From contig VXME01000005.1 of assembly GCA_009861545.1 (NCBI GenBank), positions 45,669-80,363 of the forward strand: a stretch of 34,695 nucleotides of DNA. Reading direction: 5' to 3'. This DNA comes from Acidobacteriota bacterium (GTDB lineage: Bacteria; Acidobacteriota; Vicinamibacteria; Vicinamibacterales; UBA8438). Positions 9,482-33,283 of this stretch are shown one piece after another. The position numbers were made by a program, and so were the translations under genes. The notes beneath the pieces were generated by a model, which did no database searches, was not told the DNA's origin, and worked only from the letters and a program-made list of their open reading frames with translations. Position 1 is the stretch's first letter, and each line of letters opens with the position of its first letter.

Positions 9482-10675
9482 GTGACCGCACCGTATAGGC
9501 AGGACGAACTCACGGCCCTGATGCGGGAGATCGAATCGGACCGTGTCGAGCGCAAGCGCTCGGCCGCCGACCGTAGCGGCATCCGTCGCAACCTCTGCGC
9601 CTTTGCGAACGATCTCCCTGGCCGCGGGACGCCCGGCATCATCTTTATCGGTGTGGAGGACGACGGCCGTTGCGCGGGGCTGCCAATTGACGACAAGCTC
9701 CTGCGCGACCTCGCCGGCATGAAGGACGACGGGAACATCCTGCCGTTGCCGTCGATCATCGTCGAGCCGCGGCGAATCGACGGGTGCGACGTGGCGGTCG
9801 TCACCGTTCAGCCTTCACGGGACACCCCCGTGCGCTATATGGGTCGGGTGTGGATCAAGGTGGGCCCGACGGTGCGCGAAGCCAGTCCGGAGGAGGAGCA
9901 GCGGCTCGCCGAACGCCGCCGCGGACGGGACCAGCCGTTCGACCTGCGCCGGGGAGCCGCCGACAATATCGACGATCTGGACCTCGATTTCCTGCGCGCC
10001 CATTACTTGCCGAGCGCCATCGCACCCGAGGTGCTGGCGCAGAATCGGCGGTCTTTCGATCGGCAGCTCGATTCTTTGCGGCTGCTGGCCGGCGATCGTC
10101 CGACGTGGGGCGCTCTGCTGGCGTTCGGCCGCGACCCGCAACGCTGGGTTCCCGGCGCCTGGGTGCAGTTCCTCCGCATCGACGGACCGGCGATCACCGA
10201 TCCGATCCGCGATCAGAAGGACCTCACCGGGAGACTCGACGACGTGCTGCGACGACTCGACGAGCTGTTCAGGCTCAACGTCAGCGTGCGCACGGAGGTG
10301 GCCGGCAGACCGCGGGAAGCGCAGCAGCCGGACTATCCGGTCGCCGCCCTGCAGCAGCTCGGGTGGAACGCCGTGATGCACCGCAGCTACGAGGAAACGC
10401 ACGCGCCGACCCGGGTCTACTGGTACGCCGATCGTATCGAAATCACGAGTCCCGGCGGGTTGTATGGCCGCGTGACGTCCGAGAACTTCGGCAAGGGTGC
10501 GACCGACTATCGCAATCCCCTCGTGGCGGAGACGATGCACCACCTCGGTTTCGGCCAGCGCTTCGGCCTCGGGGTGCCGCTGGCGAACGCTGCACTGCAA
10601 GACAACGGAAATCCGGCGCCGGCGTTCGACTTCGAGCCGACGCAGGTCTCGGTCACCTTGAGGCCGGCCGGATGA
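9482..10675 (+). CDS. AlbA_2-domain ATP-binding protein (GHKL-type C-terminal half)
   Basis: This 397-aa protein is of the type annotated as RNA-binding or ATP-dependent RecG-like putative transcriptional regulators. The N-terminus is an AlbA_2 (Schlafen-related) domain: VERKRS, NLCAFANDLPGRGTPGIIFIGVEDDG and VRYMGRVWIKVGPT (to about residue 135). The C-terminal half resembles the GHKL/HATPase_c_4 part of such proteins, with an N-box-like WNAVMHRSYE and IEITSPGGLYGRVT. The GTG start is chosen for its GGAGG 8 bases upstream and for the match with the relic's start. Its stop overlaps the start of parA (ATGA), implying translational coupling and a joint function. The AlbA_2 domain suggests nucleic-acid contact; the real substrate is unknown. 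It is not a RecG helicase, as no helicase motifs are present. Confidence 0.8.
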   Translation: MTAPYRQDELTALMREIESDRVERKRSAADRSGIRRNLCAFANDLPGRGTPGIIFIGVEDDGRCAGLPIDDKLLRDLAGMKDDGNILPLPSIIVEPRRIDGCDVAVVTVQPSRDTPVRYMGRVWIKVGPTVREASPEEEQRLAERRRGRDQPFDLRRGAADNIDDLDLDFLRAHYLPSAIAPEVLAQNRRSFDRQLDSLRLLAGDRPTWGALLAFGRDPQRWVPGAWVQFLRIDGPAITDPIRDQKDLTGRLDDVLRRLDELFRLNVSVRTEVAGRPREAQQPDYPVAALQQLGWNAVMHRSYEETHAPTRVYWYADRIEITSPGGLYGRVTSENFGKGATDYRNPLVAETMHHLGFGQRFGLGVPLANAALQDNGNPAPAFDFEPTQVSVTLRPAG

Positions 10676-11718
10676 AGACCGTCGCCTTCTTCAACAACAA
10701 GGGCGGTGTCGGCAAGACGTCGCTCGTGTATCACCTGGCCTGGCTGTTCGCCGACCTCGGTGTGAACGTCGTGGCCGCGGATCTCGATCCGCAGGCAAAC
10801 CTGACGAGCATGTTCCTCGACGACAGCCGATTGGAAGCCCTGTGGACCGAAGGCGACGGGAGAAGGACAGTGTACGGAGCGATACAGCCGCTGCTCGAAG
10901 GCAGCGGGGACGTGACGGCGCCCCACGTGGAACATCCGACCCCCGGGCTGGGGCTGGTGATCGGCGACCTCGCGTTGTCGGCCGCGGAAGACGAGCTCTC
11001 CAGCCAATGGCCGGACTGCCTGGACCGAAAGCCGCGCGCGTTCCGGGTGCTGTCGGCTCTGTGGCGCGTGCTGCGGATGGCCGCGGAGCAGACCGCGGCC
11101 GATCTGGTTCTGGTGGACGTCGGCCCGAACCTCGGCGCGTTCAACCGCGCCGCGCTGGTCGCCGCGGACGACGTCGTGGTTCCGTTGGCGTCGGATCTCT
11201 ACTCGCTGCAGGGCCTGCGCAACCTCGGCCCGACGCTGCGGCGGTGGCGAGACGAGTGGACCGAACGGCGGGAGCGCAATCCGGTGGCCGCTCTGGATGT
11301 GCCCGCGGGGACGATGCGCCCGATCGGATACGTCGTCATGCAACACGCCGTGCGTCTCGATCGGCCCGTGAAGGCGTACGCGCGCTGGATGGCGCGCATT
11401 CCGGGCGTGTACGCGGAATCCGTCATGGGTGAATTCGACCAGCCCGATCGCACCATCGACGCCGATCCCAATTGTCTCGCCACACTGAAGCACTTCCGCA
11501 GCCTGATGCCCCTGGCCCAGGAGGCGCGCAAGCCGATGTTCAAGCTGAAACCGGCCGACGGCGCCATCGGCGGCCACGCCAACGCCGTCGCGGATTGCCG
11601 GGCCGATTTCCTCTTCCTCGCTTGCGCGGTCGCGGAGCGCACGGGAATCTCGCTCGGGAAACGCGCCGCCGCACCGCGCCGCGGACAGACCGGGATCGGG
11701 AAAGCCGATTCCGCCTGA
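10672..11718 (+). CDS. ParA-family ATPase coupled to the AlbA_2 gene
   Basis: This 348-aa protein has the deviant Walker A of the ParA/MinD/Soj family (KGGVGKT, residues 10-16), the A'/switch region ADLDPQANLTSMF, a Walker B-like LVLVDVGPNLG, and ASDLYSLQGLRNLGPTLRRW. It should form ATP-dependent dimers, but no ParB and no parS-like sites lie next to it, so ordinary plasmid or chromosome partition is unlikely. It overlaps the AlbA_2/GHKL gene by 4 bp, so the pair are probably one module with two nucleotide-binding proteins. The tail after about residue 320 is basic (KRAAAPRRGQ) and might bind nucleic acid. It is followed by an inverted repeat that could be its terminator. Confidence 0.85.
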   Translation: MKTVAFFNNKGGVGKTSLVYHLAWLFADLGVNVVAADLDPQANLTSMFLDDSRLEALWTEGDGRRTVYGAIQPLLEGSGDVTAPHVEHPTPGLGLVIGDLALSAAEDELSSQWPDCLDRKPRAFRVLSALWRVLRMAAEQTAADLVLVDVGPNLGAFNRAALVAADDVVVPLASDLYSLQGLRNLGPTLRRWRDEWTERRERNPVAALDVPAGTMRPIGYVVMQHAVRLDRPVKAYARWMARIPGVYAESVMGEFDQPDRTIDADPNCLATLKHFRSLMPLAQEARKPMFKLKPADGAIGGHANAVADCRADFLFLACAVAERTGISLGKRAAAPRRGQTGIGKADSA

Positions 11719-13666: not shown

Positions 13667-14905
13667 ATGACCGGCTACGGAGATCTGGCACGGCGCATCC
13701 GTCTGGGTGAGGACTCGGTGCTCGAACTCAAGCAGGTGACGGTGTCGGGGTCGCGGGTGACCGCGCCGCGCCGGAACGACGTCGCCGACGAGCTGGGAGC
13801 GTTCGCCAACGGGCGAGGCGGCGAGCTGGTGCTCGGCGTGGACGACGCGACGCGACGGGTCACCGGAATCCCGCTCGACGCCCTGGACGTCGTGGAGACC
13901 TGGGTCCGCGAGATCTGCAATGACACGCTGAAGCCACCTCTGGACGCCACGATCCGCAAGGTGGAGCTGCCCACACCGGCCGGCGACCTGGCGCCCGTCC
14001 TCCTGGTCGCGGTCGAGCGCAGCCTCTTCGTGCACAAGAGCCCCGGCGGCTATTTCCGCAGACTCGGCAGCTCGAAACGAGAGCTGGCCCCGGATCTGTT
14101 GGCACGCTTGTTCCAGGAACGCAGCCAGAGCCGGATGATCCGGTTCGACGAATCCGCCGTCCCGGGCACCGTGCCGGGGGACCTGGACTATGCGCTGACA
14201 CGCCGGTTCCTGCGGGACGACGGGGTGGAGGAGGACGCCTCCGAGACCACGGCGCGCAAGCTGCGTCTCATTGCACACGCCGACGGCACGCCGAGACTAA
14301 CGCTCGCCGGGGTCCTGCTCTGCACGCGCGAGCCGCAGCGCTGGCTGCCTCACGCATACGTACAGGCGGTCAGCTACGCCAGCGAACGTACCGACGTCGA
14401 GTACCAGACGGACGCGCGCGACATCGGCGGTCCGCTCGACGAGCAGGTCGCCGAGGCCCTGCACTTCGTGCGAAGGAACATGTTGGTGCGGGCCACGAAG
14501 GCGACTGCCCGAACGGAACACCCGCAGTTCAGCGACCGGGCGGTCTTCGAGGCGCTCGTCAATGCCGTGGCGCATCGCGACTATTCGATCGCGGGCGCGA
14601 GGATACGCCTGCACCTGTTCGGGGACCGCCTGGAGCTCTACGTCCCCGGGGCGTTGGCGAATTCACTGACGCTCGACAGCCTGCACTTGCGCCAGGCGAG
14701 CCGCAACGAGTTGATCGTTTCGCTGCTGGCCCGCTGTCCGGCGCCCACGGGTGTCGGCCGGATGCACATGATGGACCGGCGGGGTGACGGGGTACCGATT
14801 ATCCGCAAGGAAAGCCGGGAGCTGTCAGGACGCCTGCCGGAGTACACCCTGATCGATGAGAGCGAGCTCCGTCTCGTCGTTCGGGCGGCGACTGCAGACG
14901 GGTGA
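13667..14905 (+). CDS. Second AlbA_2-domain ATP-binding protein, first gene of a four-gene operon
   Basis: This 412-aa protein starts at the ATG at 13667, just before the AlbA_2 domain (DSVLELKQVT, then ELGAFANGRGGELVLGVDD, residues about 20-65, and FVHKSPGGYFRRLGSSKREL). The C-terminal half has GHKL/HATPase_c_4-like features: VFEALVNAVAHRDYS (N-box-like), RLELYVPGAL, and MMDRRGDGVPIIRKES. It is a distant relative of the gene at 9482 and differs in length and in most positions. The next ORF can start inside its stop (GTGA) and the following genes are 9 bp away or overlapping, so it heads a tight operon with the dual-OB-like and DUF488 proteins. A role in nucleic-acid sensing or transcriptional control is an inference from the domain. 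The 162 bp upstream (13505-13666) hold no gene and should carry the operon promoter. Confidence 0.8.
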   Translation: MTGYGDLARRIRLGEDSVLELKQVTVSGSRVTAPRRNDVADELGAFANGRGGELVLGVDDATRRVTGIPLDALDVVETWVREICNDTLKPPLDATIRKVELPTPAGDLAPVLLVAVERSLFVHKSPGGYFRRLGSSKRELAPDLLARLFQERSQSRMIRFDESAVPGTVPGDLDYALTRRFLRDDGVEEDASETTARKLRLIAHADGTPRLTLAGVLLCTREPQRWLPHAYVQAVSYASERTDVEYQTDARDIGGPLDEQVAEALHFVRRNMLVRATKATARTEHPQFSDRAVFEALVNAVAHRDYSIAGARIRLHLFGDRLELYVPGALANSLTLDSLHLRQASRNELIVSLLARCPAPTGVGRMHMMDRRGDGVPIIRKESRELSGRLPEYTLIDESELRLVVRAATADG

Positions 14906-14928
14906 ACCGTCTCTCGAACACAGCGACG

Positions 14929-15609
14929 ATGCCGAGCACGAAGCGTCTCGTCTGCCTCGCGAACTCCCGCACGCTCCGCGGTCGATGCGTTGCCGGGCGT
15001 GAGTGGAACGGCACGGAAGCCGGCGGCTGGATTCGGCCCGTCAGCGCCCGCGACGGCGGGGAGGTATCGGAGTACGAGCGCCAGTACGCGGACGGCAGCG
15101 ATCCGCGGGTTCTCGACGTGATCGACGTTCCGGTTCTGGAATCACGGCCGAAGGATTATCAGACGGAGAACTGGCTGCTCGATCCGAAGTGCTACTGGGG
15201 GAAAGCGGGCCGCCTGTCGACGTCCGACCTGGCTGTGTTGACGGATCCCGTCGCTCCGCTGTGGATCGACGGCCACAGCACCTACAACGGCCTGAACGAC
15301 AAGGTCCCGCTGACAGTGGCCGGCGCGGTCGCCGGTTCCCTGCGGCTGCTCCGCGTCGACCGGTTGCGGCTCATCGTGTCCCGCCCCGGCGAGGCCTTCG
15401 GCAACGACAAGCGGCGCGTGCAGGGCCGGTTCCGGCACGCAGGCCGCGAGTACGCGCTGTGGGTCACCGATCCCGGCTGGGAACGAACCTATCTGGCGAA
15501 ACTGAACGGCACGTACGACATCGGCGAGTGTTACCTGACAGTCAGCCTGGGCGAACCGTACGGGGACGCGTGCTACAAGCTGATCGCCGCCATCATTCCC
15601 GCAACCTGA
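14929..15609 (+). CDS. Dual-OB-domain-like protein
   Basis: This protein of about 226 aa opens with TKRLVCLANSRTLRGRCVAG, followed by GGWIRPVSARDGGEVSEYER, and has the beta-rich composition of proteins I recall being annotated as a dual OB-containing domain, which would bind nucleic acid. Other conserved-looking parts are ENWLLDPKCYWGKAGRL, VDRLRLIVSRPGEAFG and a C-terminal GECYLTVSLGEPYGDACYKLIAAII. The ATG at 14929 fits the family start; a GTG at 14902, overlapping the previous stop, would add nine residues and give translational coupling. It lies second in the AlbA_2/DUF488 operon, 9 bp before the first DUF488 gene. The family call is from memory of motifs; there is no enzyme motif. Confidence 0.6.
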   Translation: MPSTKRLVCLANSRTLRGRCVAGREWNGTEAGGWIRPVSARDGGEVSEYERQYADGSDPRVLDVIDVPVLESRPKDYQTENWLLDPKCYWGKAGRLSTSDLAVLTDPVAPLWIDGHSTYNGLNDKVPLTVAGAVAGSLRLLRVDRLRLIVSRPGEAFGNDKRRVQGRFRHAGREYALWVTDPGWERTYLAKLNGTYDIGECYLTVSLGEPYGDACYKLIAAIIPAT

Positions 15610-15618
15610 AGCAGGCAA

Positions 15619-16278
15619 ATGCCAGCGACCGGCGGTACCGTGCTGACGATAGGGCACTCCACGCATCCCGTGGAGGCGTTCATCGACCTGCTGCAGCGTC
15701 ATGAGGTTACCGCAGTAGCAGATGTTCGCGCCGCACCCTACAGCCGCTTCAATCCGCAGTTCAACCGCGAAGCGTTGTCGGGCAGTCTCGTCGCGCGCGG
15801 AATCGCGTACGTCTTCCTGGGATCGGAATTGGGTGGTCGCTCGAATGATCCGGCCTGCTACGACAACGGGCGCATCAGCTACATGCGACTCGGCGCGACC
15901 TCCTCCTTCCAAGACGGGCTCGACCGCGTTGCCAAAGGCATGAGCAGGCACCGCATCGCGCTCATGTGCGCCGAGAAAGAACCGCTCGAGTGCCACCGCG
16001 GCCTGCTCGTAGCTCCAGCCCTCCAGGCACGGGGCGTTTCAGTTGCCCATATCGGGCCCGACGGCCGGCTGGAGCTCCATGCCGACGCCATGTTCCGACT
16101 GCTGGCCATGCACGGGATGGAGGACACCAGCGAGGACCACCGGTTGTTCCGGCGCTCCCGGGCAGAGCGGATCGAAGACGCACTCACGCAGCAGGCCCAT
16201 CGATTCGCGCACCGGAAAGAGACACTGGCTGACGATTCCGCGTCGCAAGATAGACGCAACGGTGAGTTGCAGACATGA
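15619..16278 (+). CDS. DUF488 family protein (first copy)
   Basis: This 219-aa protein has all the hallmarks of DUF488: TIGHSTHPVEAFIDLL near the start, VADVRAAPYSRFNPQFNRE, and the Cys-rich CAEKEPLECHRGLLVAPAL (about residues 115-133). The biochemical activity of the family is unknown to me. The conserved DVR, Ser/Arg, and Cys/His positions look like an active site rather than a structural motif. The C-terminus (after about residue 165) is charged and longer than the core. It overlaps the second DUF488 gene by 4 bp (ATGA) and lies 9 bp after the dual-OB-like gene, so the three are very likely co-translated. Confidence 0.85.
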   Translation: MPATGGTVLTIGHSTHPVEAFIDLLQRHEVTAVADVRAAPYSRFNPQFNREALSGSLVARGIAYVFLGSELGGRSNDPACYDNGRISYMRLGATSSFQDGLDRVAKGMSRHRIALMCAEKEPLECHRGLLVAPALQARGVSVAHIGPDGRLELHADAMFRLLAMHGMEDTSEDHRLFRRSRAERIEDALTQQAHRFAHRKETLADDSASQDRRNGELQT

Positions 16279-16712
16279 GGATTTTCACCATCGGCTTTAC
16301 GAAGAAGTCCGCGAACCGGTTCTTCGAACTCTTGCGGACATCGGGCGCACGTCGCGTCGTCGACGTGCGGCTCAACAACGTGTCGCAGCTTGCCGGCTTC
16401 GCCAAGCGAGATGATCTGGCCTACTTTCTCGCCGAAATCTGTGGCATGGACTACGTGCACCTGCCGGTGCTGGCGCCCACGAAGCAGATACTGGACGACT
16501 TCAAGAAGAAAGGTGGCGACTGGAGTACCTATGAATCACGCTTCCTGGACCTGATGCGCGTTCGACGCGTCGAGCAGACGGTCGCCAGGGAAACCATCGC
16601 CGACGGCTGCCTGCTCTGCAGCGAGGACACGCCCGAGCATTGCCATCGCCGGCTCGTCGCGGAGTACCTGAATCGGCACTGGGGCGGACTGCAGGTCACT
16701 CATCTCGGATAG
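16275..16712 (+). CDS. DUF488 family protein (second copy, short form)
   Basis: This 145-aa protein is a divergent DUF488: TIGFTKKSANRFFELL, VVDVRLNNVSQLAGFAKRDDLAYFL, and CSEDTPEHCHRRLVAEYL at the end. It belongs to the shorter subtype with GFxKRDDLxYFL in place of the SRFNPxFN motif of the first copy, so the pair is not a recent duplication. It ends the operon. Its stop is 85 bp from the convergent stop of brxHI, and no clear hairpin terminator is visible in the gap. Confidence 0.83.
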   Translation: MRIFTIGFTKKSANRFFELLRTSGARRVVDVRLNNVSQLAGFAKRDDLAYFLAEICGMDYVHLPVLAPTKQILDDFKKKGGDWSTYESRFLDLMRVRRVEQTVARETIADGCLLCSEDTPEHCHRRLVAEYLNRHWGGLQVTHLG

Positions 16713-16797: not shown

Positions 16798-18906
16798 TCA
16801 CGCCAAGGCGACTTGCCGAATCCGTTCCTCCAGACATTTGCGTACCGCCTCGCGGTCCAGGCCGCGTTGGCGAAGGGTTCGAACCGCCAGCTCCCTTGGC
16901 AGACACGCCGAGAACTTCAGCGAATCGACAGCTTCATCGGTGATAGGGAGGGCTTCCTCCGTCGTCTCCACCTCTATTGCATCGAGTCGTCTCCTCAATT
17001 CTTCGATGCCGACGCCATCCAGCAGCCGAATCGAGAGATTGTCGCGGGACGCTGGCAGGGGGAGCGTTCCAATCAACGCTCCGAGCGTGATGTTCGCGCG
17101 AAGGCCCGCGAACGTCCACCAACGGCTGGCGCCCGTGGCGTCACGAACGATGGCGGTGCCGGCGGCGTCGACCCAGGAAAAGCTCTCACGGATCTCGTCC
17201 AGCTTCGTCCGAGCGCGCCTGCTGAGTCGGACTCCGTGGGTTCCTTCGTCGAGAACCCGCCGAATCGCCCTGCAGAGATCGAAGCCGAGAGGGATTCCCG
17301 GTCCGATCCAGCGTGAACGCCCCTTCCCCGTGGTTGCCTTCACGTAGGCGACGCGCCGGTCCCACTCCACATGCGTCACCTCCCAGCTCCTGCCAGCCAG
17401 CAGGAGCACGACCGGACCGTCGCGGCGGACCAGAAACGAGAGCGGATGCACGAGACCGAGCTCCGTCCGTCCGTGCCGCACGGAGAAGAGCGGCTCGCTG
17501 GTGAACACCGACATGAGATCCATGAAATGCCGGCGGCCGAAGGCGCGCTCTCCCTCGACACCCATCGACAGCATCCCGCCGTCCTCGTACAGCATCCCAC
17601 GCGTCAGCATGAACTCGATGATGTCATCGAGGTGCTGCTGCGCCACCGCCCGGAACGCGGGCATCCGATTCAGCCAATCGCGCCACGTTCGGCGCCCGAT
17701 ACGTCCTTCCTGCAAGGCCAGGGCCAGGAGCTGTTGCGCGAAGATGTGAAACGGCTCCGGCGGCGGTACGACAGGTTCGACATAGCCTTCGAGCCAGAGT
17801 CGCAGCAGACCGGACGCTCTCAGGAATCCGTCGTCCGACGTTGCCAGGAAGAGACAGTTCCGGACCGTGCCGGGTCGGCGCCCGGTACGGCCCAGCCGCT
17901 GCAGGAAGGACGCAACGGTCGCCGGCGCGTCGATCTGGATCACGCGGTCGAGGTCGCCGACGTCGATTCCCAGCTCCAGCGTACTCGTGGCGACTATGAC
18001 GCAGTCGCGGCTCTGAGAGAACGCCTCCTCGGAACGCCGGCGCTCGTCCAGGCCGAGGGAGCTGTGGGAGACGAACGTCTCGGTCCCGGACTGCCGCAGG
18101 TCGGCGGCCAGGGCTTCGACGCGGGCGCGGCTGTCGCAGAACACGAGCCGCTTTTCGCCCCGGTGCAGCGCGGAGATCACCTTCCCGGCGTTTCGGATAC
18201 CGCCCGCGTAGTCCAGTTGCACGGTCGCAGGCTTCGCCGCGTCGCCGCGCGGGGCGACAACCTGCCGTGGCCGGGACGAAGCGGGCGCGAGCCATTCGAG
18301 CAACGCCGCGGGATTCCCGATGGTCGCAGACAGACCCAGGCGCTGAACGTCGCGGCCGGCCAACAGGCGCACGCGCTCCAGTACCGCGAGCAGATGCCAG
18401 CCGCGATCGTCTCCGGCGAACGCATGCAACTCGTCGACGACAACCGCCTGGACATCCCGGAAAAGTACTCGCGGATCCGAGCGGCTCGACACGAGCATCA
18501 CCTCGATCGACTCGGGTGTGGTCAGCAGCAGATCGGGACGATCGCGCATGATCGCCCGTCGCCGGGCGGTGCCGACGTCGCCGTGCCAAAGCTCCACGCG
18601 CCGTCCGACCAGGACACCATAGGTCCGGAGACGCGATTCGATGTTGTTCAGGAGAGCCTTGAGCGGGCACACATAGAGCACGCTCAACCCGCCCCATTGT
18701 TCGGTGAGCATCCGCGACAGAAGCGGAAACACCGCTGCCTCGGTCTTGCCGCCGGCGGTGGGCGCCAGCAGCAGCACGTGGTCACCATCCAGCACGGGGC
18801 CGATGGCCTGCTCCTGGAGCGGTCGGAGCGACGTCCACCCGAGCGAGTTGACGATGTGATGTTGAAGGGCGGGGTGCAGGCGCTGGAACCCGGATTCGTG
18901 ACTCAC
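16798..18906 (-). CDS. brxHI: BREX helicase BrxHI (Lhr-like DEAD/DEAH helicase)
   Basis: This 702-aa superfamily 2 helicase has Walker A APTAGGKTEAA (about residues 49-59), CPLKALLNN, motif II VVVDELHAF, motif III LSATIGN, and motif VI QRLGRTGRRPG. The two RecA-like domains are followed by a C-terminal Lhr-like half. BrxHI is the last gene of type 2 BREX loci, and here too it is last, overlapping brxD by 4 bp. It is expected to work on DNA in the BREX anti-phage complex; its precise step is not known. No frameshift is visible across 2.1 kb, in contrast to pglY and pglX. Confidence 0.9.
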   Translation of the reverse strand: MSHESGFQRLHPALQHHIVNSLGWTSLRPLQEQAIGPVLDGDHVLLLAPTAGGKTEAAVFPLLSRMLTEQWGGLSVLYVCPLKALLNNIESRLRTYGVLVGRRVELWHGDVGTARRRAIMRDRPDLLLTTPESIEVMLVSSRSDPRVLFRDVQAVVVDELHAFAGDDRGWHLLAVLERVRLLAGRDVQRLGLSATIGNPAALLEWLAPASSRPRQVVAPRGDAAKPATVQLDYAGGIRNAGKVISALHRGEKRLVFCDSRARVEALAADLRQSGTETFVSHSSLGLDERRRSEEAFSQSRDCVIVATSTLELGIDVGDLDRVIQIDAPATVASFLQRLGRTGRRPGTVRNCLFLATSDDGFLRASGLLRLWLEGYVEPVVPPPEPFHIFAQQLLALALQEGRIGRRTWRDWLNRMPAFRAVAQQHLDDIIEFMLTRGMLYEDGGMLSMGVEGERAFGRRHFMDLMSVFTSEPLFSVRHGRTELGLVHPLSFLVRRDGPVVLLLAGRSWEVTHVEWDRRVAYVKATTGKGRSRWIGPGIPLGFDLCRAIRRVLDEGTHGVRLSRRARTKLDEIRESFSWVDAAGTAIVRDATGASRWWTFAGLRANITLGALIGTLPLPASRDNLSIRLLDGVGIEELRRRLDAIEVETTEEALPITDEAVDSLKFSACLPRELAVRTLRQRGLDREAVRKCLEERIRQVALA

Positions 18907-20219: not shown

Positions 20220-22834
20220 CGGCCGGCCCCGGAAAGCTGCTTCCTGTCACTCGCGAGACCGAATTGCGTGTCGAGCAGATCGCGGTTCAACTGGACGGTC
20301 TCGGACGCGTCGTCGACGGACAGAACGTCGTACCCCTCGACGTTCAGGATCCGGCGCAAGGCGGACACGATGCCGCCGAGCCGAAACAGCGGAACACCGA
20401 GATGCTCGGCCAGCGCAGGTCCGGTGAGCTTGCCGCCGCGGGCGTCGAGCGCGGCCAGGACACGCTGCACCCGTGCCAGCGCCTGCCGGTCGGCATCCAG
20501 CGCCGCGGGACCGGGCTCGGCCGCCGGAACCGTCTCGACCCGCCATTGCCACCAGCCGGGGATCTCCTCAGCGGCTTCGCGCCAGCCCGCGACATGCGCC
20601 GCGGTCTCCGGCAAGGCAAAGACGCCTAACGGGAGCACCACCTCCTGAAGCGTCGCGCCGCCGTGATAGCCGTTCTTCTTCATCCCGAAGCGGACCCGCT
20701 CGCTCCATGGCGCCAGCAGGCGCCGGCCCTGGGTGACGACACGCGGACCTTGAAGCAGGATCTCGTCGTCCGCGGGTGCTCCCGACACGGGGCGCCAACG
20801 TTCCGCACCGTCCGCGTCTCGGAGCTCGGTCCCGCGTTCGAGCACATGACCATGGTCGCTCACGAGGACGACGACCCGGCCGCTGGAGCGACAGGCGTCG
20901 AGCAGTTCCTCGACGGGCCGGATCTGCCGCGCGGTCCATCGCACCGGCACCTGCTCGCCCTTCGCGAGGTGGTCGTCGACCGCGTTGATCACGACGCCGA
21001 CGACCCGGTGGTCGGGATCGGCAATGGATTCCGTAACGCCGCGGGGAACTCCCGCCGCGCCGGCTTCCCGGAGGTCACCCTTGTGAAACAGCACCGGCGG
21101 CGCCGCCGGTGCACAAGCCGAGCGCAGTCCCGCGTGTCCGGAAAATCCGTCCTTCTCCGTCGATGAATTGCCGGACACGATCTCCCCGCACAACAGGCTC
21201 GTACGCGACACCTCGGTCACCGTGGGCAGGCCGGCAATGACCACGGGACGCTCCGGCTTCTCTCCCGCCACCAGCTCGACCCATCCGCGCCAGACGAGAT
21301 CGCGCTCCAGCTCCCTGAAGACCGCCATGCTCATCGCATCGATGACCAGCACGAGCACCGGTTGCACACGGGCGAGGGGGGCGATCCAGCGGTCGAGCAC
21401 CGCCTCGACACCCAGCAGGCTCCGGTCGTGCGGTCCGGAGCCCGGCCAGCCCGCCAGGAGCCTCCCGAACTCCCGGTTCTCCTGCTGCCGCGCCAAGTCG
21501 GCCTGCCGCGCCAGGGCGGCGTACGCCTCCCCGAGCCGCGGTGAAGAGTCGCCGTCCCAGAGGCACGTGCGGGCCCAGTCCACGAAGCCGCCCGCGAATC
21601 GATACGCGCGTGTGGCCTCGCCGAACGACTGCCGGCTTGCCGCAACACCACCGCGGCGGGCGGCGAGCCAGCCGGCCAGACGCAGAGCCATTTCGACACC
21701 CAGCGGACGACGCGATTCTTTCGCCGAGAGTGCGTGGTCGAGCACGTTGCCGGCGGCGTCCCGCAACGCCGCCGGCATCTCGTGCGCTTTGCTGTCGACG
21801 AACGCGACCAGCTCCCGCGCGAGATCGCCAAGCCGCTGGTCGAGGGACGCCCGCAGGATCCCGCTCCGCCACGCAAGGTCCGTCGCGCCCAACTCCTGCA
21901 GCAGGACGTCGGCATCGGCAAGCACCGCCATGACTGTCCCGAAGGACTCCGCCGGCGGCGCCGGCCCGGAATCCGCACGACGAGCAAGACGCCGCCGCAC
22001 CACATCCTCGGCGGCGTCGATCCACCCGCGGGCAAGCTCCGCGTCCAGATCGTGCAGGCCGAGCAGGGCCTCGAGCTTGCCTCTCGCCTTGGCCGCCCGT
22101 TCGTCGCCCTGCGCCTCCGGATCGAACAGGACGCGCGCCACGAGACCAACGGAGACCGTCCCGCGCCCGAGTCGTCCCGCGCACTCGAAGATCGCCCGCG
22201 CCGTCCGACCCACGCTGGCCTCGGAGGCGACCGCCAGTCCGGTGCGCACCGCCTCCGGCAGAGCGTCCAGTTTCTCCGCGGGTGCGCCATCCAGCGCCCA
22301 GGCGACGAGCGCCTCCGGGTCCCGCGCGCCGCGCGGGATGCCGGCGAGGGCCTCGAACAAGTGTCGCCAGGCCGTCTCGGCATCCAGAAAACCGCTCGGG
22401 ACCGGGGAGTATCCGTCCTCGGGCTCGGCGTCGAGGAGCGCGCGCGCGGCCCAGGCGTGACGTTCGACGAGGCGCGGGTCGACATGCAGGACCTTGAACC
22501 GTTCCTTCACGAGCTGCCACGGATCGATCGGAAACAGCCTGCGGTGGGCGAGTCGCGCGACGAGGTCGTCGCCCAACTCCGCCTCCGACAGATCCGTCAG
22601 CACCACGAGCGGCGGCCCGGCCGCAGGAAGATCGACGAAGCGTTCGCGCAAAGCCAACACCGAGCCGCACCGGATGACGGACAGTTCCTCGGAACCGGCC
22701 CGCAGCACGGACGGCGCCGGCGTCGCTTCGTCCAACGCCGGCATGCCAATGCCGATGGCGCGCGCGTCCGGATACCGGTGCCGGATCGACTCGACCTGGG
22801 CACGTACTTGCGCGAACGAAGGCACACTGCTCAT
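20216..22834 (-). CDS. pglZ: BREX type 2 alkaline-phosphatase-like protein PglZ
   Basis: This 872-aa protein is the family hallmark of BREX. The phosphatase-superfamily metal site appears as VLVIDAMSM (Asp about 499) and VSDHGHVLE (about 658-666), with the candidate nucleophile Thr in GLPTVTEVSR (about 535-544). The long helical N-terminal part (1-480) and a C-terminal winged-helix-like end fit type 2 PglZ. It is expected to act in host protection and phage exclusion with PglX and PglY. It is intact, overlaps pglY's end by 4 bp (ATGA) and overlaps brxD in the same way. Confidence 0.92.
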   Translation of the reverse strand: MSSVPSFAQVRAQVESIRHRYPDARAIGIGMPALDEATPAPSVLRAGSEELSVIRCGSVLALRERFVDLPAAGPPLVVLTDLSEAELGDDLVARLAHRRLFPIDPWQLVKERFKVLHVDPRLVERHAWAARALLDAEPEDGYSPVPSGFLDAETAWRHLFEALAGIPRGARDPEALVAWALDGAPAEKLDALPEAVRTGLAVASEASVGRTARAIFECAGRLGRGTVSVGLVARVLFDPEAQGDERAAKARGKLEALLGLHDLDAELARGWIDAAEDVVRRRLARRADSGPAPPAESFGTVMAVLADADVLLQELGATDLAWRSGILRASLDQRLGDLARELVAFVDSKAHEMPAALRDAAGNVLDHALSAKESRRPLGVEMALRLAGWLAARRGGVAASRQSFGEATRAYRFAGGFVDWARTCLWDGDSSPRLGEAYAALARQADLARQQENREFGRLLAGWPGSGPHDRSLLGVEAVLDRWIAPLARVQPVLVLVIDAMSMAVFRELERDLVWRGWVELVAGEKPERPVVIAGLPTVTEVSRTSLLCGEIVSGNSSTEKDGFSGHAGLRSACAPAAPPVLFHKGDLREAGAAGVPRGVTESIADPDHRVVGVVINAVDDHLAKGEQVPVRWTARQIRPVEELLDACRSSGRVVVLVSDHGHVLERGTELRDADGAERWRPVSGAPADDEILLQGPRVVTQGRRLLAPWSERVRFGMKKNGYHGGATLQEVVLPLGVFALPETAAHVAGWREAAEEIPGWWQWRVETVPAAEPGPAALDADRQALARVQRVLAALDARGGKLTGPALAEHLGVPLFRLGGIVSALRRILNVEGYDVLSVDDASETVQLNRDLLDTQFGLASDRKQLSGAGR

Positions 22835-25800
22835 GCGCCATCCTTCCGGTCACGCAGGAGCTTCCAGGTGATCTCCAGTCGCGCGGCCGGTTCCTTCCGG
22901 AGCAATGCTTCGAGCCTCGCGGTGACCTCGCGCAGCCGTTCGTGATTCAGATCGCCGTGCGCCCCCTGGTCAACGAGAACGCCCTCGCGTACGGACGTGC
23001 CGCCCCCACCGGTTCCCTTGCCTTTCCCCGGCGGCAGTGATGGTGATGGTGGCGGCGGCTCCGCCGGGACCGGGCGCGCCAGAAGATTGACGGTCCGGTT
23101 CTCGATCTCGGGCAGTCGGTGACCGAGCGCCACGGCGTACTCGTCGGCGGCCATGACCTCCACAAGTTCCTGCAGAAGGAGCTGGGCGGCGTCGGCGCGG
23201 TCGTCCGCCAACTCGGATAGCGTTGCAAAGAGCTTCCAATGGGTTCGCCGGAGAACCTCCAGGACGTCATCCGCCTTGCGGAAGCTCGTGCCCATCGCTT
23301 CGAGGGACGTGTCCGGCTGGATTTCGGCGAGCTTCTCGACCCGCGCCTTGCCGCGGAGCGCAGACAGAGCCTGGACGAGCGCGCGGGTCGCACGGGCGGT
23401 GCGAAGCCGTTTGGCGCCATCCTCCGCGATGGAGAAGTCCGCCCCGATGGCCGCCAACCGCTCGACCAGTTCGCCGCAGGCGGCGGCCTGTTCTGCAGCG
23501 GCCTGCCCGAGACGCTCCGCGAAGTCGCTTGCGTTGGCCGCGTTGCGCAGCGGAGACACCGTCAGTCCGAACACCTTGCTCGCGCGATCGCCGGCCGTCT
23601 TCCACGCTTCCTGCGACGGCAACTCCTCTTCCCGCAGCTCCACGTCGCCGGGCAGATCGTCGAGCGTCGCCGTCCACGGACCGCCGTGCCGCCGGAACGC
23701 GACGGGCGGAGCGGCTTGTCGATGGGGATGCGTCCTTCCTGCTCCTGCACCGCACGCGCACCCGGCGCAGCACCGTCGTCTTGACCGGCGCGCCGAAATC
23801 CGGGTGCGCCGGGTACTGGCTGGCGCACATCTGATCGAACAGGCCCTCCAGTGCGCCCCGCAGGTGCGCTCGCGCCGGCGGCCGCGGCTCGAAGGCGGGC
23901 TCGAGCGACTGGAAGTGCTCCGCCAGCGGGTGCGACTGGTCGACCGATCCCGGAGGCGGATTCTCGACCCCGTAGGCGCCCTCCAGGTAGTGGATCAGGC
24001 GCTGCCGGAGCTGGCTCTGCTGATTCCGCAGGAGTTCGCGCGCGGACGCCCGATCGACCGGCGAGAGATGCGCCGCGAAGTCGCGCAGCCGGTCACCGCG
24101 CAGGACGTGGTCGATCCTGACGAGCGTACCGAGATCGCGTTGGGCCGCGGCGCTCAGGAAGGACGGCAGCCAGACCAGCGTCCGCGCCCGCGCGTCGCGC
24201 CCGCGGAAGTCGTTGAGACGCGCCAGGTCGTCGGCCGGCGTGCGGCCCGGCTCGTCGAAGGGGAAATCGACGATCACCTTGCGTTCGTCCCCGCGGGTCG
24301 AGAGGGACTCGTCCGGCAGTTCCCGTACGTTGGCGAAGATGACCTCGAAGCGGCGTTCCGTGCCGCGCCACGCTACGTCGTGGTAGAGAATGAGCTCGTC
24401 GCGATCCTCGATCCCGAGCTCGCTGAACAGGATCTCCCGGATCAGCCGGCGCCGGTTGCCCGTGTTGTCGTGCCGGCCGGCGTCGGCGAGGATGCTCTCG
24501 GTATCCACCGCCGAGAGCTGCATGGCGATGGTCGGATTGGCCGGATGGTCACCGATCCGAACCTCCCCGATCTCGGCGGCCCAGGCGCGGCAGCGCCGCA
24601 GTACCTCCTGGCCTTCGCGTCCCTCGATCGGCGTCCGGATCGACCCGTGGTTCAGCGCCGCAAGCCGCCCCGCGGTCAGGTTCTTCAGCACCTCGACCTC
24701 GGGCGCGAGGGCCGCCAGCAGCAGCGTCTTCGCGAGTCGATCCTCCGCGCGCAGAGCGCGCGCCGCGGTGTCGCTCTTCGGACGCGTCTCGGCCTCCGCC
24801 TTCGAGATCCCGTGCCGGCGTTCGATGAGCGGCAGGAGCTTCCGGCGGTAGAGGTTCCGCGCGTTCTCGAAGTGGTGGCGCGTGCTCTCGGTGAACGGCT
24901 CGTCGCCCTCGGCGAGGGCGTCGAACAGGTCGCCGACCGGGACGATCTCGCCCAGGTCGAGCGTCTCGCGCCCGTCGACCAGGATCTGCAGCATCACCTT
25001 CAACGCGGTCCGCTCGCGCTGGAGCAGCGACGAGACGGCGACCAGGGTCTCCACGAGTGCGGGACTGAAGGGGTAGACCTTGCGGAACATCGCGCGGTCC
25101 GCGCGCGGGGTCAACAACGTCTCGAACACGTCCCGGCGAACCTTCTCGGTCTCGGCATAGGCGCTGTCAATCTGCTGGCGCGCCCCGTGATCTCGCGGGC
25201 GCAGCAGGCGCCGGGCGGCGATCTCCGGAAGATTGCGGTCCTCCAGCGTGATCCCCTCGAAACGCGCCTCCCACCATTGCAGGACGTCCGCGAAACCGAG
25301 CTGCAGCGCCCCGGTCACCTGCTCGCCGACCAGCTCGCGCAGGTCGCGCTGGCGCGCCACGAAGCTGACGATCGGGATCGGCCGGCCAGCCGTCTCCGCC
25401 TCGACCAGCTTCGAGACCTTGGGCCCCTCCTCGTTGAGGAACCGGAAATCGGCGGCATGGGTCGCGAGCCACAGGATCAACTCGTCGAGAAAGAGCACCA
25501 GGGCGTCGTAGCCGAGGTCGCGGGCGTGACGCGATATCACGGCCAGTCCCTCGTCGAGCGGCACGAACGCCTCGTCGCTCCCCCGCGCCACGTCGCGGTA
25601 GCCCCGGAAGAAGGAGTCGATCAGCGCGGCGACCAGCCGGCTGCGCGCCTCGGCCCCCGCCGGCGCGCCGAGCGCCGCCTCGAAGCTCGCCGCGTCCCAC
25701 TGCTCGGACAGATCGCCCCAGCCGGCAGCACCCTCGCCGGCACTCGACGCGGTCTCGTTGAGGCGCGCGAAGAACGTCTCGTCGCCGATCTGCGCCCGCA

Positions 25801-26292
25801 GCCGGCGGGCATCCTCGAAGAGTCCCTCGGTGCGGTAGACCCCGGCGCGGGCGCGTCCGGGTGCAGCTCGGCCACGCGCGCCGCGTAGCCGCCCAGCACG
25901 GCGGCCTCCAGGCTCGGCTTGCCGATCATGTGGTAGGGAACGAGGAGGAACCGCTTGTCGGCGAGCCAGTTGTCGTGCTGTGTGACGACGCCTTCGAGGC
26001 CCTCGGTGGCGCGGGCCGCCGCGTCCTGCTGCAGCAGCAGATGGAGCACGGCCATGAAGTGGCTCTTGCCGCTGCCGAAGCTTCCGTGCAGGTAGGCGGC
26101 CTTGCTGGAGCGGGACGCGAGGGCGCCCTTGATGAGATCGAGCGCCCGGTCGAAGGCGTCGGCGAGCTGCGGGGTCACGACGTAGGTCCGGAGCGTCTCG
26201 GCGGGGTTCGTCACGCCCTCGGCGAGCCGGAGGACGAAGTCGTCGCGGTGGACCCGCTCCGGGATGTCGATCAGGTCGCGGATCAGCGTCAT
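22831..26292 (-). pseudogene. pglY: BREX type 2 PglY, interrupted by several frame changes
   Basis: Read across frames, this encodes about 1,150 aa of PglY, a large ATP-binding BREX protein. The start MTLIRDLIDIPERVH is followed by a P-loop GSFGSGKSHFM (about residues 70-80) and, later, LGYDALVLFLDELILWLATH. Frame changes: near 25843 the text passes from HPDAPAPG to VYRTEGLFEDARRL, consistent with loss of one G from a G run; near 23755 it passes from TTVLRRV to VQEQEGRIPIDKPLRP; and near 23700 to RRHGGPWTATLDDLPGDV. The last segment reads cleanly to the stop overlapping pglZ. Each frame joins similarity without large gaps. If the base calls are right the gene is inactive; homopolymer errors could explain the first change but less easily the close pair. 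Confidence 0.8.
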
Positions 26293-26356
26293 GCAGGAGC
26301 CCTCGGCATCCGAACCGACCCGGGAGCGGTGATGATCTCCGTCGGGCCGAGCCGTC

Positions 26357-27729: not shown

Positions 27730-28925
27730 TCATCGGGCCGGAGTCTCCGCAAGGCTCCGCGACCTCGGCTTGCCGTCGGCGTTCAAGATGTCGATTTCCT
27801 TCGCGCGGGCAAGTTCGATGACCGTGTCGTCGAGATCGGAGAATCTGGCCGCCGTCCTGTTCGCGAGCACGTGCCGCACCGTCTGCACGGTGACGGGTTC
27901 CTCGACGACGAGGGCATGCAGCTCCCGCGGCAGGGAATCGAGAAGCTGCACGCGCATCTCTTCCGCTTCGAGTTCCTCGAAACGGAACAATCGTAACGTA
28001 TCGGTGGATCGCAAGGCGTCCCATCCAAGCATGTCGAAGCCGCCGGAGCCGTAGTGCTCGAACGTGCCCGATATGTCCCAATGGCGTTGAATCATGACGT
28101 CGCGCGCGGTCGGATGTCTCGACAGGTGCAGGAACCAGAGCGCCCGCCGCGACTGGCGGGGTCGAATGAAGAAGGGCGTGTCATACGTCGCCCCGGTGGT
28201 ATTGCGAATATGGTCGCGTAGCGTCCGCTGGACAAGCGCTCGTCCGCCGGCGCCGTCCTTGAGTCGAATCAGGTCCTGTATCCGTGGCCGCGTCAGTTGG
28301 AGCGGCGACACCGCCTTGACGTTGGCGGGCGCTGTCGAGAGATGGTTGACGAGCGCATCGGCGGCGAACGTCAGGATGACTTCCGCTGCACGCAACTCAC
28401 GAAGTATCCTGGCAACCAGGCCCAACTCGACACGTGCGAATCCTGTCTGATCGAGAAGAAATATGGCTCGGCCAGCCCGCGGCTGACGGCTCTGAATGGC
28501 AGTAATGATTGCGTCCGCCTCGTCTTCGAACCGGCTGTTTCGAAGAATGACCCTTTCGGGATCGGCGTAACCGCGCTCGTTCAAGGCCGCCTGTAGATGT
28601 GCGGTATGAAGGGATCCGCGTCGACGAAATAGTACTTGCAGTCGAGATGCAGACGCTTTGAGCGGCCCCGGTTCAGGCGTGCTCGCGCCGCCTCGGATTC
28701 CTCGATCATGACCAGAGGCGTACCCGATTCGGTTCCGCCACCGTCCTGGAACGTACCCCCGCCGCAGAAGCCGTCGACGAGGTCGAGCTTGAACTCCTCG
28801 CGGGAAGGATTGACGCCCAAACGGTCGAAGTAGGCGCGCAGGTAGCGGCGCAGGACGTTGAGTTTCGCCTTGCTGTGTTCCTCGATCGGCGGCGGAGGCT
28901 CGCCGGGGCGCCATCTGAAGGTCAT
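27730..28925 (-). pseudogene. tcmP: Three-Cys-motif partner protein TcmP, one frameshift
   Basis: About 398 aa across two frames. The first segment (from 28925) has LDLVDGFCGGGTF, GTPLVMIEES and YYFVDADP. The second, entered near 28607-28613, continues HTAHLQAALNERGYADPERV, IFLLDQTGFARVEL and FDMLGWDALRSTDTLRLF to the stop. Restoring one T in CCCTT gives DADPFHTAHL, so the lesion is a single-base loss in a short T run. TcmP is the known companion of the DUF5131 (phage Gp37/Gp68-like, three-Cys) family, whose gene ends 15 bp upstream here. The function of the pair is not established. It is an inactive gene if the base call is right, otherwise intact. Confidence 0.78.
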
Positions 28926-28940
28926 AGCACGGAGCCTGCT

Positions 28941-29739
28941 TCAGACCGATTCTACCGGCGCCCCGGCGGATCGCTCCTGCTGTTCCCCGGCCGTTGCCGG
29001 AACTGACGGCCTGGCGTCCCACGTACGACCGTCGAGTCTGCGCCCCGTGAGCCTCTTGAGCGTTCCGCCCCATTGCTTGAAAAAGAACGCGACGTTCTGT
29101 TCCTCGCATTGCTCACGGATCGCCCGGACCCATTCGGCTTTCATCGGACGTGCTCCGGGGCCGCTCTCCCCTCCGACGATCGCCCAGTGGATCCCGCTGA
29201 GATCGGCGCCGGTCACGGGGCCGAGCAGCGGCTCGAACGACGCGAACCTCAGGACCGTCGCGGGTTGCCCTGAGCTCGCCGAGGCGCCAAAGGTAGTCGG
29301 ACCTCTCGACGCTCGTGCCGAGCCACACGTTCGGAAGGAGGGGAAGACGCTCGGCGAGACGTTGCATGCGCTCGGGGCGTTTGGTCAGGATCTGGAACGT
29401 GTGTTGCCGTCCCGCGGCCATAGTCTTCCACACCTTGGAGATGAAAGATTCCGGTACGCCGGGGTGGAATAGATCGCTCATGGAATTGACGAACACGAAC
29501 CGCCGCTTCCGCCACCGGAGCGGAACGTCCAGGCTCGCCTCGTCGCAGCGCACGGCGCCTGTCCAGACGGATCGTTCCCCGCTTCGGTGCGTAAGGGAAC
29601 GGTACTTCGCCTGCCCCATCGCGTCGAGCCGCGCCGCCATGCGCATTGCGTAGCAATTCGCGCAGCCGGGGGAAAGAACCGTGCAGCCGGCTACCGGATT
29701 CCATGTGGCGTCGGTCCATTCGATCTCCGTGGCGGCCAT
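28941..29739 (-). pseudogene. DUF5131 (phage Gp37/Gp68-like, three-Cys) protein, one frameshift
   Basis: About 265 aa over two frames. The start at 29739 has GGAGGG upstream and gives IEWTDATWNPVAGCTVLSPG with Cys19, Cys26 and Cys29 (C-x6-C-x2-C), an arrangement like a radical-SAM iron-sulphur site. Then come FVNSMSDLFHPGVP, FQILTKRPERM and VWLGTSVE. Near 29261-29267 the frame changes, and ATVLRFASFEPLLGP, IHWAIVGGESGPGARPM and FFFKQWGG follow in the other frame. The lesion is an indel of one base or a few in CGGGTTGCCC. The gene lies 23 bp after pglX and 15 bp before tcmP, so the three formed one transcript. Confidence 0.8.
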
Positions 29740-29762
29740 TCGGGTACCCTCCTGACCAGCGT

Positions 29763-32700
29763 TCACGCCCCGACAGCGGAGGAACGCCGCCGATTGCCGC
29801 GACGGGCGCGGCCCGCGGGCGGCGCCCAGGCGCGGATCACCGCATGGGTGAGCGAGAGCGACCGCGCCTCTTCGTCGATGAACCCCTCGAAGTAGTCGCC
29901 CATGCCGGTGTCGAATTCCGGATCGGGCGCGTTGTGATGTTGGCGCACCCAGGGCAGCAGCTCCAGCAGCGCCGCGAGGAGGGGCGTCAGCCGCTCCGCC
30001 GTCCAGCCTTCCTGCTCCCGCATCTGATGGAAGTACGCGGCGATCGCCCGGCTCTGCTCCAGTACGTTCCAGCCCGCCCAGCCGATCACCAGCGACGGAT
30101 CCGCCTCGCGCTCGCAGAACGGCAAGCTGACGAAGCGCTCCTTCGGCACGTCGAGCTTGCCGCGCAGGCGCCACCAGACGCCTTTCCGGAAGTCGACCGA
30201 CGTATACCGCGGGGGTGCGGGAATCGTTCCGATCTCCTTCGCCTTCAGCGCCGCGGCCTGCTCCGGGGCCAAGCGCTCCGGATTCACTGCGGACAGCTTC
30301 GCCCGCGCGTCGATCGCATCCTCACGCCGCTGGAGGTCCCACGTGCGCTCCCACGCCTCGCGCTTGCGGAGTCCGGACGGCTTGTAGCGGAGGACCGGCA
30401 GCAGCGGGACGCTCTGGTCCTCGACCAGACCGGCCACCAGCTTCGCCACGTTGAAGTCCGGACGCCCGGTGTGCAGCTCCGCCACCTGCAGGAACTCCGC
30501 GTCTTCCCGCATCCGGTCCGCCAGTGCCGCGGTGGTCGTCAGGCGCGGCTCCGACCAGAACGACCGGGTTTCCAACCGATCGAGCAGCCAGCCTCGGAGC
30601 GCCCGCTCTTGCTGCGTCTCCCACGGTTCGTCATTCCAGCGGCGCTTGTACTCAGGTTGCTCGATCAGAGCGATGCTCGCGTCCTTCTCGATGGCCTGGA
30701 CCCGACGATGGACCAGATCTCGGTACGCCGCTGGCCAGCGCGCGGGGATTTCCTTGATGGGCGTCGAGCCGTGCCGTTCGAACCACTTCGTCTGGACTCC
30801 GCCCGCCGCGATCTTTCGCGCCAGGACGATCTCGAAGGCTCGCTCGCCGAGGCGGATGGCGGGTGCGTCACCACGTGGCATGCAAAGGTCATCTTCCGCT
30901 ACGCCGTAGAGCCGATAGCAGCGCCAGTCGAGCTCCTCTTGCAGGGCGATCATCTGCTCGTGGATTCTCTTGGCGCGAATGCGTCCTGTTTCCAGACAGT
31001 CGGCCGACAGTACATCCCCTGTGATCAGAGCGGCGGGAAGCAATTGAGTCCGCTCTTGTGCAAGTGAGTCTATCGTTTGAGCGAGATCGATTGGCCGGAT
31101 TGCGGAACCGCTCGCGAAAGAACATGGAGTATTCGTGCCATTGCAAACCATGCTCGATCTGCGACTTTCCGAAGGCAACGCGTGACGCAAGCTGTGTTCG
31201 CCAAGGCCAAAGAAAAGTCACCATGCGTCCTTCCGTGACTGTCTCCAGCGTTAGCGGATCATATGGCCATATAGACCCAACTGATCGAGAAATCCTCCAG
31301 TCACGGACTTCTTCGCCTGCCACCAGCGGACGGATGTGGTCGACCGCCACGCCGTGGCGCCTTGCGACACCGGTTCCGATGCGAAAGCAATCATCCTCGC
31401 GAGTGACTGCAATGCAGCCAATATCGCTGGCCACATCGCTGAGCATGGTCCGGGCCGTCTCGGCCAGTTCGGCCAGTTGCTCCCGGAGTTCGGCCGCTCC
31501 GCCTCCGCCGATACTCCAAGGATGTCTCCGGAACCGTTCTCGCGGTACGTCCGAGACGCTCACGAACTCGCTCTCCGACCCTGCTTGGTCGATCTGCGCG
31601 ACGATTGCTGACCAGACGAGCCCGGTCGCCGGGTCATTCGGTATCGCTGGTTCACCACGAATCCCCATCACTGCTCGCACGGACCCGGCAACGGGTCGGC
31701 GATGCCTGCCAAACAAGATCACCGTGGGGGTCCCGTGACCGGGAATGTAGGCGCCTGAAGTGTCCACCACTTGGGTCATGTCCCAACGGGGGATGAACTC
31801 TTCGATCAGCTTCCTGCCGAACTCCCGTTTCATGAACGAGTTGGCCGTGATCATCCCAACGAAGCCCGCCGGCTCCTCCGCATCGGGCGCGGGCGCATGG
31901 GCGAGGTCGAAGAAGCGCTCCGTGAACGGTACCGCGAGCGAGTACTGGCGGTAGCAGGAGCCGAAACGCTCCCGGTAGCCTTGGTTCAGCGCCTTGTCCT
32001 TCGGCGTGATGTAGGGCGGGTTGCCGACCACGACGTGATAGCGCCGGCCGAGGATGGCCCGGAGGGCCTCGGCGTCTTCCGTACGGTAGACGTACCCGAG
32101 GGGCTCCGTCGCGACGCCTTCGAGGTACTCTTGTCGTGCCCCGGCCATGTCGGGACGCGGCCCATGGAGCAGGGAGTCGCCGACGGCTACGTGCATCTCG
32201 AAGGCCGGCGTGGCGGCGAGACGACGCACCTTGCAGGCATTGAGCGCGGCGCCGCACAGGCGGAAGCGCGCGATCGCGGCAGCGAAGGGATTCAGGTCCA
32301 CGCCCGCCACCTGTTCGAGAACGCGGGTAGCCCGCTCGCGCGGGTTCGTGCTCGGCTCGCGCCGCGCCCACAGCGCTTCCAGGCGCCGGAACGCGCCCAG
32401 CAGGAAGTGTCCCGAGCCGCACGCGGGATCGATCAGGCGCACCTCACGGAAACCGAACTCCTCGATGGCCGGCGTGAGCGTGCGGTCGAGGATGAACTCC
32501 TCTACGAACTCGGGCGTCTGGAGCAGCGCGTAGCGCTTGCGCGCGCTCTCGGAAAGGTCCTGGTACAGATCCCCCAGGAAGCGCGTATCCCAGGTCCCGT
32601 CCGTAAAATCGTGCGCGAGGACGCCCGAGTCGGGATCGATCCGTTGCCACAGCCGGAGCAGCCGCGTCGCCGCGTCGCCAGAGAGCATCTCGGCGTCGAC

Positions 32701-33135
32701 GGACCAGAGCGGATTGTGCCGCTCGTCGAAGAGATGTCCGGCGACCGGCAGCGCCGCGACCGCATGGAAGACGTGCAGCAGGTACTCGCGGTCGGTATCC
32801 GTCGGGTGCGCTCGGAAATAGAGGTTGTGCTCGTCGAGCGCCCGCGTGCGCCGGTCGCCGGGGCCGGAAAGGCGCGGCGGCTCGACCAGGGCGTTGTCTT
32901 CGAGGAAGCGCACGAAGACGCATCCGAGAATCCAGGCGACGGCCACCTGCGTCAGGCGCTCTTCACGCCAGGCGTCGTAGGTATCGGCGGTGCGTTCGCG
33001 CCCGATCGCCGTGCGGTACTCCTGCTGAAGGGACGCTTCCAGGTCCGGGCGTTCCCCGCACCGCGCACGCAGGTCGTCTTCGAGGTCCGCCCGCAGGCGC
33101 GTGAGGTCCGTGAGCAGACGGCCGGCGTCGATCAC
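29763..33135 (-). pseudogene. pglX: BREX type 2 adenine methyltransferase PglX, with deletion and frame change
   Basis: Two frames cover about 1,120 codons of PglX, the BREX N6-adenine methyltransferase that marks host DNA. The first (from a GTG at 33135) has the SAM-binding DPACGSG (about residues 236-242) and catalytic NPPY (372-375), then runs through LTLETVTEGRMVTFLWPWRT and WHEYSMFFRERFR. Near 31100 similarity moves to the second frame at IDLAQTIDSLAQERTQLLPA, then RIHEQMIALQEELDWRCYRLYG, and ends at DYFEGFIDEEARSLSL and RAWAPPAGRARR. From memory of intact PglX, about 90-110 residues that normally lie between these blocks are absent, so this is a deletion plus frameshift, not a base-call slip. 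The catalytic domain is intact and a truncated protein could still be made. Confidence 0.85.
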
Positions 33136-33283
33136 CGGCGGCCCCGCCGCCTGTCGCCGGTGTCGTGCCGATTCCGCCGCGGGTCGTTCCTGTACGTAGT
33201 CTCCATACGGATCGCCAAGTATTGCCGCCGTGCAGGCCGTGCTACGCTGATTCCGGGCGCCGGGTGCATTCTACGAGACTGCC

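Follow-up and report, generated by a model that had tools for sequence, protein, structure and literature searches.

An AlbA_2-GHKL gene linked to the DuOB-DUF488-DUF488 trio of the phage-defence candidate PDC-M45 in an Acidobacteriota bacterium

Within a 34,695-nucleotide stretch of DNA from an Acidobacteriota bacterium (contig VXME01000005.1, positions 45,669 to 80,363; referred to here as the window), four intact and tightly packed genes form an operon that is best read as a variant of the phage-defence candidate PDC-M45, with a putative Schlafen-type RNase effector added to it and with the DuOB protein as the presumed nucleic-acid binder. The operon is real, conserved and worth testing, but it is not the undescribed system that an earlier note on this DNA had proposed. 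This description proved wrong for the last three genes, since they match the existing PADLOC models of PDC-M45. The new element is the linkage of the AlbA_2 gene, which we did not find listed, while the trio itself is already a known candidate.

Results

The operon and its match to PDC-M45

Coordinates of the open reading frames confirmed the arrangement described previously, i.e. four plus-strand genes which either overlap or are separated by no more than 23 bp (Table 1). The AlbA_2 gene ends 23 bp before DuOB, DuOB is followed after 9 bp by the gene for DUF488 subtype B (DUF488-B), and the latter shares 4 bp with the gene for DUF488 subtype C (DUF488-C). An alternative GTG start of DuOB at 14902 would overlap the AlbA_2 stop codon; the ATG at 14929 was favoured because homologues begin at this position. 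Chance is not a satisfactory explanation of the four-gene arrangement, as the identical gene order was found again in other phyla.

Table 1. Genes of the operon, with positions in the window and profile matches (E values)
Gene	Position	Strand	Length (aa)	Matches
AlbA_2 (Schlafen-type nuclease domain) + GHKL ATPase domain	13667..14905	+	412	PF04326, 7e-13 (49.6 bits, cut-off 25.3); HATPase_c_4 PF13749, 1e-14
DuOB, two OB folds, PDC-M45A	14929..15609	+	226	PF22557, 5e-66; PDLC04653, 4e-91
DUF488 subtype B (DUF488-B), PDC-M45B	15619..16278	+	219	PF04343, 8e-25; PDLC04657, 3e-79
DUF488 subtype C (DUF488-C), PDC-M45C	16275..16712	+	145	PF04343, 1e-24; PDLC04658, 5e-75

All three components of PDC-M45 are present and contiguous in the window, in the same order as the three models and covered by them over nearly their full length. 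The two DUF488 proteins were matched by separate models, M45B and M45C, which bears out the earlier assignment of these proteins to different subtypes. What sets the window operon apart is the AlbA_2-GHKL gene, for which no M45 model match was obtained, whereas the matched PDC-M45 models cover three genes. PDCs are putative defence candidates, proposed on the basis of 'guilt by embedding', and their validation is mostly awaited (PMC12988326). Our literature search found no paper naming PDC-M45, and none in which the candidate was tested or the module was assayed against phages.

Conservation and spread of the trio

The trio of DuOB, DUF488-B and DUF488-C is old; its genes are tightly packed and have been inherited together. 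When one genome per species was scanned with a DuOB profile (84,980 species), 25 loci were obtained, two of which end at a contig edge; the full trio was contiguous and in order in 18 of the 23 informative genome loci, and the 4-bp overlap between the two DUF488 genes was seen in most loci. Bacteria bearing the trio belong to Acidobacteriota, Latescibacterota, Pseudomonadota, Nitrospirota, Actinomycetota and Chloroflexota. When the three proteins were compared by their pairwise distances, correlations with rho of 0.62-0.74 were obtained, a level reached in none of 500 permutations. The trio was also found on Agrobacterium, Rhodovastum and Allochromatium plasmids and on IMG/VR viral contigs, once with a likely serine recombinase gene downstream; no match to the module was present among 50,697 INPHARED phage records.

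The composition of the module is not invariable. On small plasmids of Citrobacter, Salmonella, Klebsiella and Acinetobacter (L047, L051, L052), the trio is replaced by DuOB, DUF488-C and a DUF4326 gene, and DUF488-C is absent from two loci, L024 and L030. The expectation that both DUF488 proteins are needed is therefore plausible, given that the two subtypes are usually kept together, but does not hold strictly. In genome G146 (L057) DUF488-C is broken by a stop codon, and G006, G019 and G021 contain copies that are truncated or decayed, though some of such defects may be assembly errors.

Several further arrangements were observed. An operon of DuOB, DUF488-C and DUF4326 is likely present also on one viral contig (L127). 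The DUF4326 motif C.CKP..CHGD recalls the DUF488 motif C.E..P..CHR, and the C..P..CH elements can be aligned; however, comparison of the profiles was insignificant (hhalign probability 1.7%), and homology of the two families is therefore not claimed. Two tandem DuOB genes precede the DUF488 pair in a Chloroflexota locus (L042, 9884-11486). In genome G267 (L083, 7948-11193), genes for a protein with a carboxymuconolactone-decarboxylase domain and for a DarG-like macrodomain protein lie directly upstream of DUF488-B and DUF488-C, and no DuOB was detected there.

The AlbA_2-GHKL gene

DuOB is immediately preceded by the AlbA_2 gene in 8 of the 25 loci (AlbA_2 being truncated in L024), as well as in the window and in genomes G013, G122 and G146. 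In the tree of DuOB, a single branch separates the loci bearing this gene from all others; it has a support of 93/97 and is present in 96% of bootstrap trees, and the resulting clade spans Acidobacteriota, Latescibacterota and Pseudomonadota. Among the nearest rows of the tree outside the clade are two trios embedded in Hma operons (L028 and L032). Most simply, the AlbA_2-GHKL gene would have joined the trio once and then spread together with it across the three phyla. The genes do form a conserved unit, but AlbA_2, confined to one DuOB clade, is not a constant member of it; the four families occur together in that clade, AlbA_2 being optional and missing from most trio loci.

Among 244 genomes of the phylum, all three AlbA_2 copies with an identity of 73% or more are linked to the trio, whereas 14 copies at 41-59% identity are not. 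The same search revealed, besides the operon copy, five further AlbA_2-GHKL paralogues in the genome from which the window comes. In the window itself, a second gene with AlbA_2 and HATPase_c_4 domains lies at 9482-10675 (PF04326, 5e-14; PF13749, 6e-17), with E rather than D at the third position of the triad described below; it is followed by a ParA-like AAA_31 gene (10528-11718), located just upstream of sir2.

The AlbA_2 protein of the operon matches the Schlafen chain 5yd0 (E 8e-5), and its residues E15, E20 and D59 occupy the positions of Glu, Glu and Asp in this chain and are spaced as in the SLFN13 triad, the catalytic residues of which were taken from PMC5862951. D59 is kept in 11 of 11 trio-linked copies and in 6 of 15 unlinked paralogues (p=0.0016, with related sequences treated as independent). 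On the grounds of this alignment and of the retention of D59 in the linked copies, the gene product is probably a Schlafen-type RNase that is active and also carries a GHKL domain for ATP binding. A possible effector role of this kind fits better than the sensor role suggested before, as the E-E-D triad has been preserved in copies linked to the trio.

According to PMC12839542, a Schlafen-kinase architecture is widely found as an addition next to BREX. Schlafen/AlbA_2 genes near BREX share with the window copy an AlbA_2 and a GHKL-type ATPase domain, the proximity of BREX and the E-E-D triad as in SLFN13. The window copy differs in that it heads a DuOB-DUF488-DUF488 operon and occurs together with this operon also where BREX is absent.

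Predicted structures of the trio proteins

Structures of DuOB and DUF488-B were predicted without the plasmid rows. No related PDB chain was found for either protein in single-sequence and profile searches, nor for DUF488-C in a single-sequence search. The AlphaFold2 model of DuOB (pLDDT 92) has its best structural relatives among telomere and RPA-type single-strand binders (RPA/TEBP/POT1-like, Z 5.6-7.4). What is shared with these tandem-OB ssDNA binders is the presence of two OB folds, with the Z scores referring to parts of the model: most of the matches cover the first OB fold, and a few cover both. On the other hand, TM-scores were low and DuOB lacks any sequence match in the PDB. DuOB is regarded as a candidate single-strand nucleic-acid binder.

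The DUF488 family is widespread, and our literature search found neither a reaction assigned to it nor a recognisable paper on its function. For the DUF488-B model (pLDDT 91), neither SAM-dependent tetrapyrrole/borosin methylases nor Cys phosphatases prevailed among the best matches (Z 7-9); in the comparison with KAP, laforin and PRL-1, Z scores of 7.6-8.6 and rmsd of 3.8-4.3 over 121-133 residues were obtained, level with SAM methylases. The C-X5-R P-loop signature of classical PTPs is absent, the DUF488 motif being C117-X9-R127, and none of the conserved Cys residues has an Arg at the distance found in PTPs. Judging from the fold, DUF488 might be a Cys-dependent, phosphatase-like or Rossmannoid enzyme. 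G12, D35, R37, S42, Y64, C117, E119, C125, H126 and R127 (numbering of DUF488-B) are invariant over the B, C and generic members of the family, and C115, E117, C123, H124 and R125 of DUF488-C are invariant in 25 sequences. As each of the two proteins keeps every residue which is invariant in the family, both look active and neither appears to be a dead copy.

Genomic neighbourhoods

In several lineages, independently of each other, the trio is located within defence systems or next to them. In L028 and L032 (Latescibacterota and Acidobacteria) it is flanked by HmaB and HmaC, which likens it to Hma-embedded candidates, although no Hma accompanies the window operon and the trio also exists alone. 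In Nocardioides (L045), PglZ, BrxL, SIR2 and HerA are followed by the trio, so that an association with BREX is found in two lineages. Trios on plasmids lie near CBASS (L048) and near CRISPR III-B/Csm6 (L050), and a NotI-type restriction-modification pair is found near the DUF4326-containing variant on L052. Two neighbouring pairs were noted separately: TcmP and DUF5131 right beside the DuOB trio of the Agrobacterium plasmid L048 (12077-14221), and a DUF5131 gene (29116-30174) with a weakly GMT-wHTH-like neighbour (27733-29109) inside the BREX locus of the window.

Many trio loci are situated among housekeeping genes, e.g. following EF-G in Chloroflexota or aconitase in Acidobacteria, and in Nitrospira (L031, 8333-12872) its insertion separates a leuA-like gene from a leuB-like one. 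According to PADLOC tallies of neighbours, trio loci are richer in true multi-gene systems than generic DUF488 loci. The numbers of defence loci were 4/19 against 0/13 on chromosomes only (p=0.11, post hoc) and 6/22 against 0/13 with plasmids included (p=0.046, post hoc). Enrichment near defence genes, which the earlier note had predicted, is thus present but modest, and housekeeping neighbours are common. The module gives the impression of a mobile cassette whose insertions are frequently, though not invariably, in defence loci.

Discussion

Our preferred interpretation is that the operon represents a horizontally mobile module directed against mobile elements, a sub-type of PDC-M45, and we would assign to this reading as a whole, including the roles proposed for DuOB, the DUF488 proteins and AlbA_2, a probability of roughly 45%. 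According to the proposed mechanism, the two OB folds of DuOB would bind single-stranded nucleic acid exposed by the invader and deliver the two DUF488 enzymes, whose target for modification or damage might be this nucleic acid or else a nucleotide. The AlbA_2-GHKL protein could provide a second, abortive arm, acting as an ATP-gated, Schlafen-like RNase that cleaves tRNA or another RNA. A stronger version of this proposal, in which the DUF488 proteins brought by the tandem-OB protein to the invader's single-stranded nucleic acid would perform a novel Cys/Arg-dependent reaction, with the linked ATP-gated Schlafen RNase as an abortive arm in one clade, seems to us distinctly doubtful.

The main rival explanation, less probable than the preferred reading and yet to be taken seriously, regards the trio as a defence module in its own right, and AlbA_2-GHKL as a separate Schlafen defence gene that works by itself and rides along in the operon rather than being a part of one machine. 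The predominance of trio loci devoid of AlbA_2, the many paralogues found without the trio (five of them in the same genome) and the reported habit of Schlafen-kinase genes to accompany BREX (PMC12839542) all speak for such a separation. However, the close copies within the phylum are trio-linked without exception, the linked copies make up one clade over three phyla, and they keep the triad that is often lost in unlinked ones. A different possibility is that the module serves the fitness of plasmids and prophages or counteracts defence, DuOB and the DUF488 proteins protecting or repairing ssDNA of the element or blocking host defences. Its presence on small enterobacterial and Acinetobacter plasmids and on viral contigs, one with the likely recombinase, would agree with this view, and in RPA and telomere proteins, OB folds of a similar type are used for ssDNA binding. 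Nevertheless, the module is also chromosomal and embedded in Hma operons, it had no counterpart among the INPHARED phages, and prophages and plasmids frequently carry defence genes as well; we consider this alternative unlikely.

A separate problem is the influence of the immediate surroundings of the operon. The BREX locus, noted before as lying next to the four genes, is indeed there: it is of type 2 and begins at 16798 on the minus strand, and the same adjacency occurs in a genome of the same genus (G001). One might suppose that the four genes are an auxiliary part of this system. However, BREX-2 is encoded on the strand opposite to the operon, and the same four genes, INDEPENDENCE from BREX, were found in another genome of the genus (G003, L022), in Latescibacteria and in Pseudomonadales, BREX being absent within 10 kb; these full operons (L022, L025, L029), which do not depend on the presence of BREX, largely refute this explanation, the least probable of those considered. 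Moreover, the four genes are intact, whereas the coding sequences of pglY (22834-26356) and pglX (29766-33270) in the window are each distributed over different frames, and their counterparts in G001 (L120) have lost internal segments, defects which suggest either decaying BREX or assembly errors. In view of the BREX-free loci and of these defects, BREX seems neither to be needed by the four genes nor to be clearly functional in the window, where it looks decayed. Hardly more credible is a housekeeping DNA-damage operon continuing from sir2 and fpg, located upstream. In four genomes of the family, the module is found downstream of these two genes, and OB folds would suit a repair function; still, the neighbours are wholly different outside the family, and fpg is separated from the AlbA_2 gene by 162 bp, so that sir2-fpg probably marks just a local insertion site.

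A mobile and compact operon which combines two active-looking DUF488 proteins with a dedicated candidate nucleic-acid binder would allow a direct assay of the DUF488 reaction. Bacterial Schlafens are relatives of human SLFN proteins, and if the AlbA_2 gene does belong to the system, it would tie the bacterial Schlafens to a specific partner complex.
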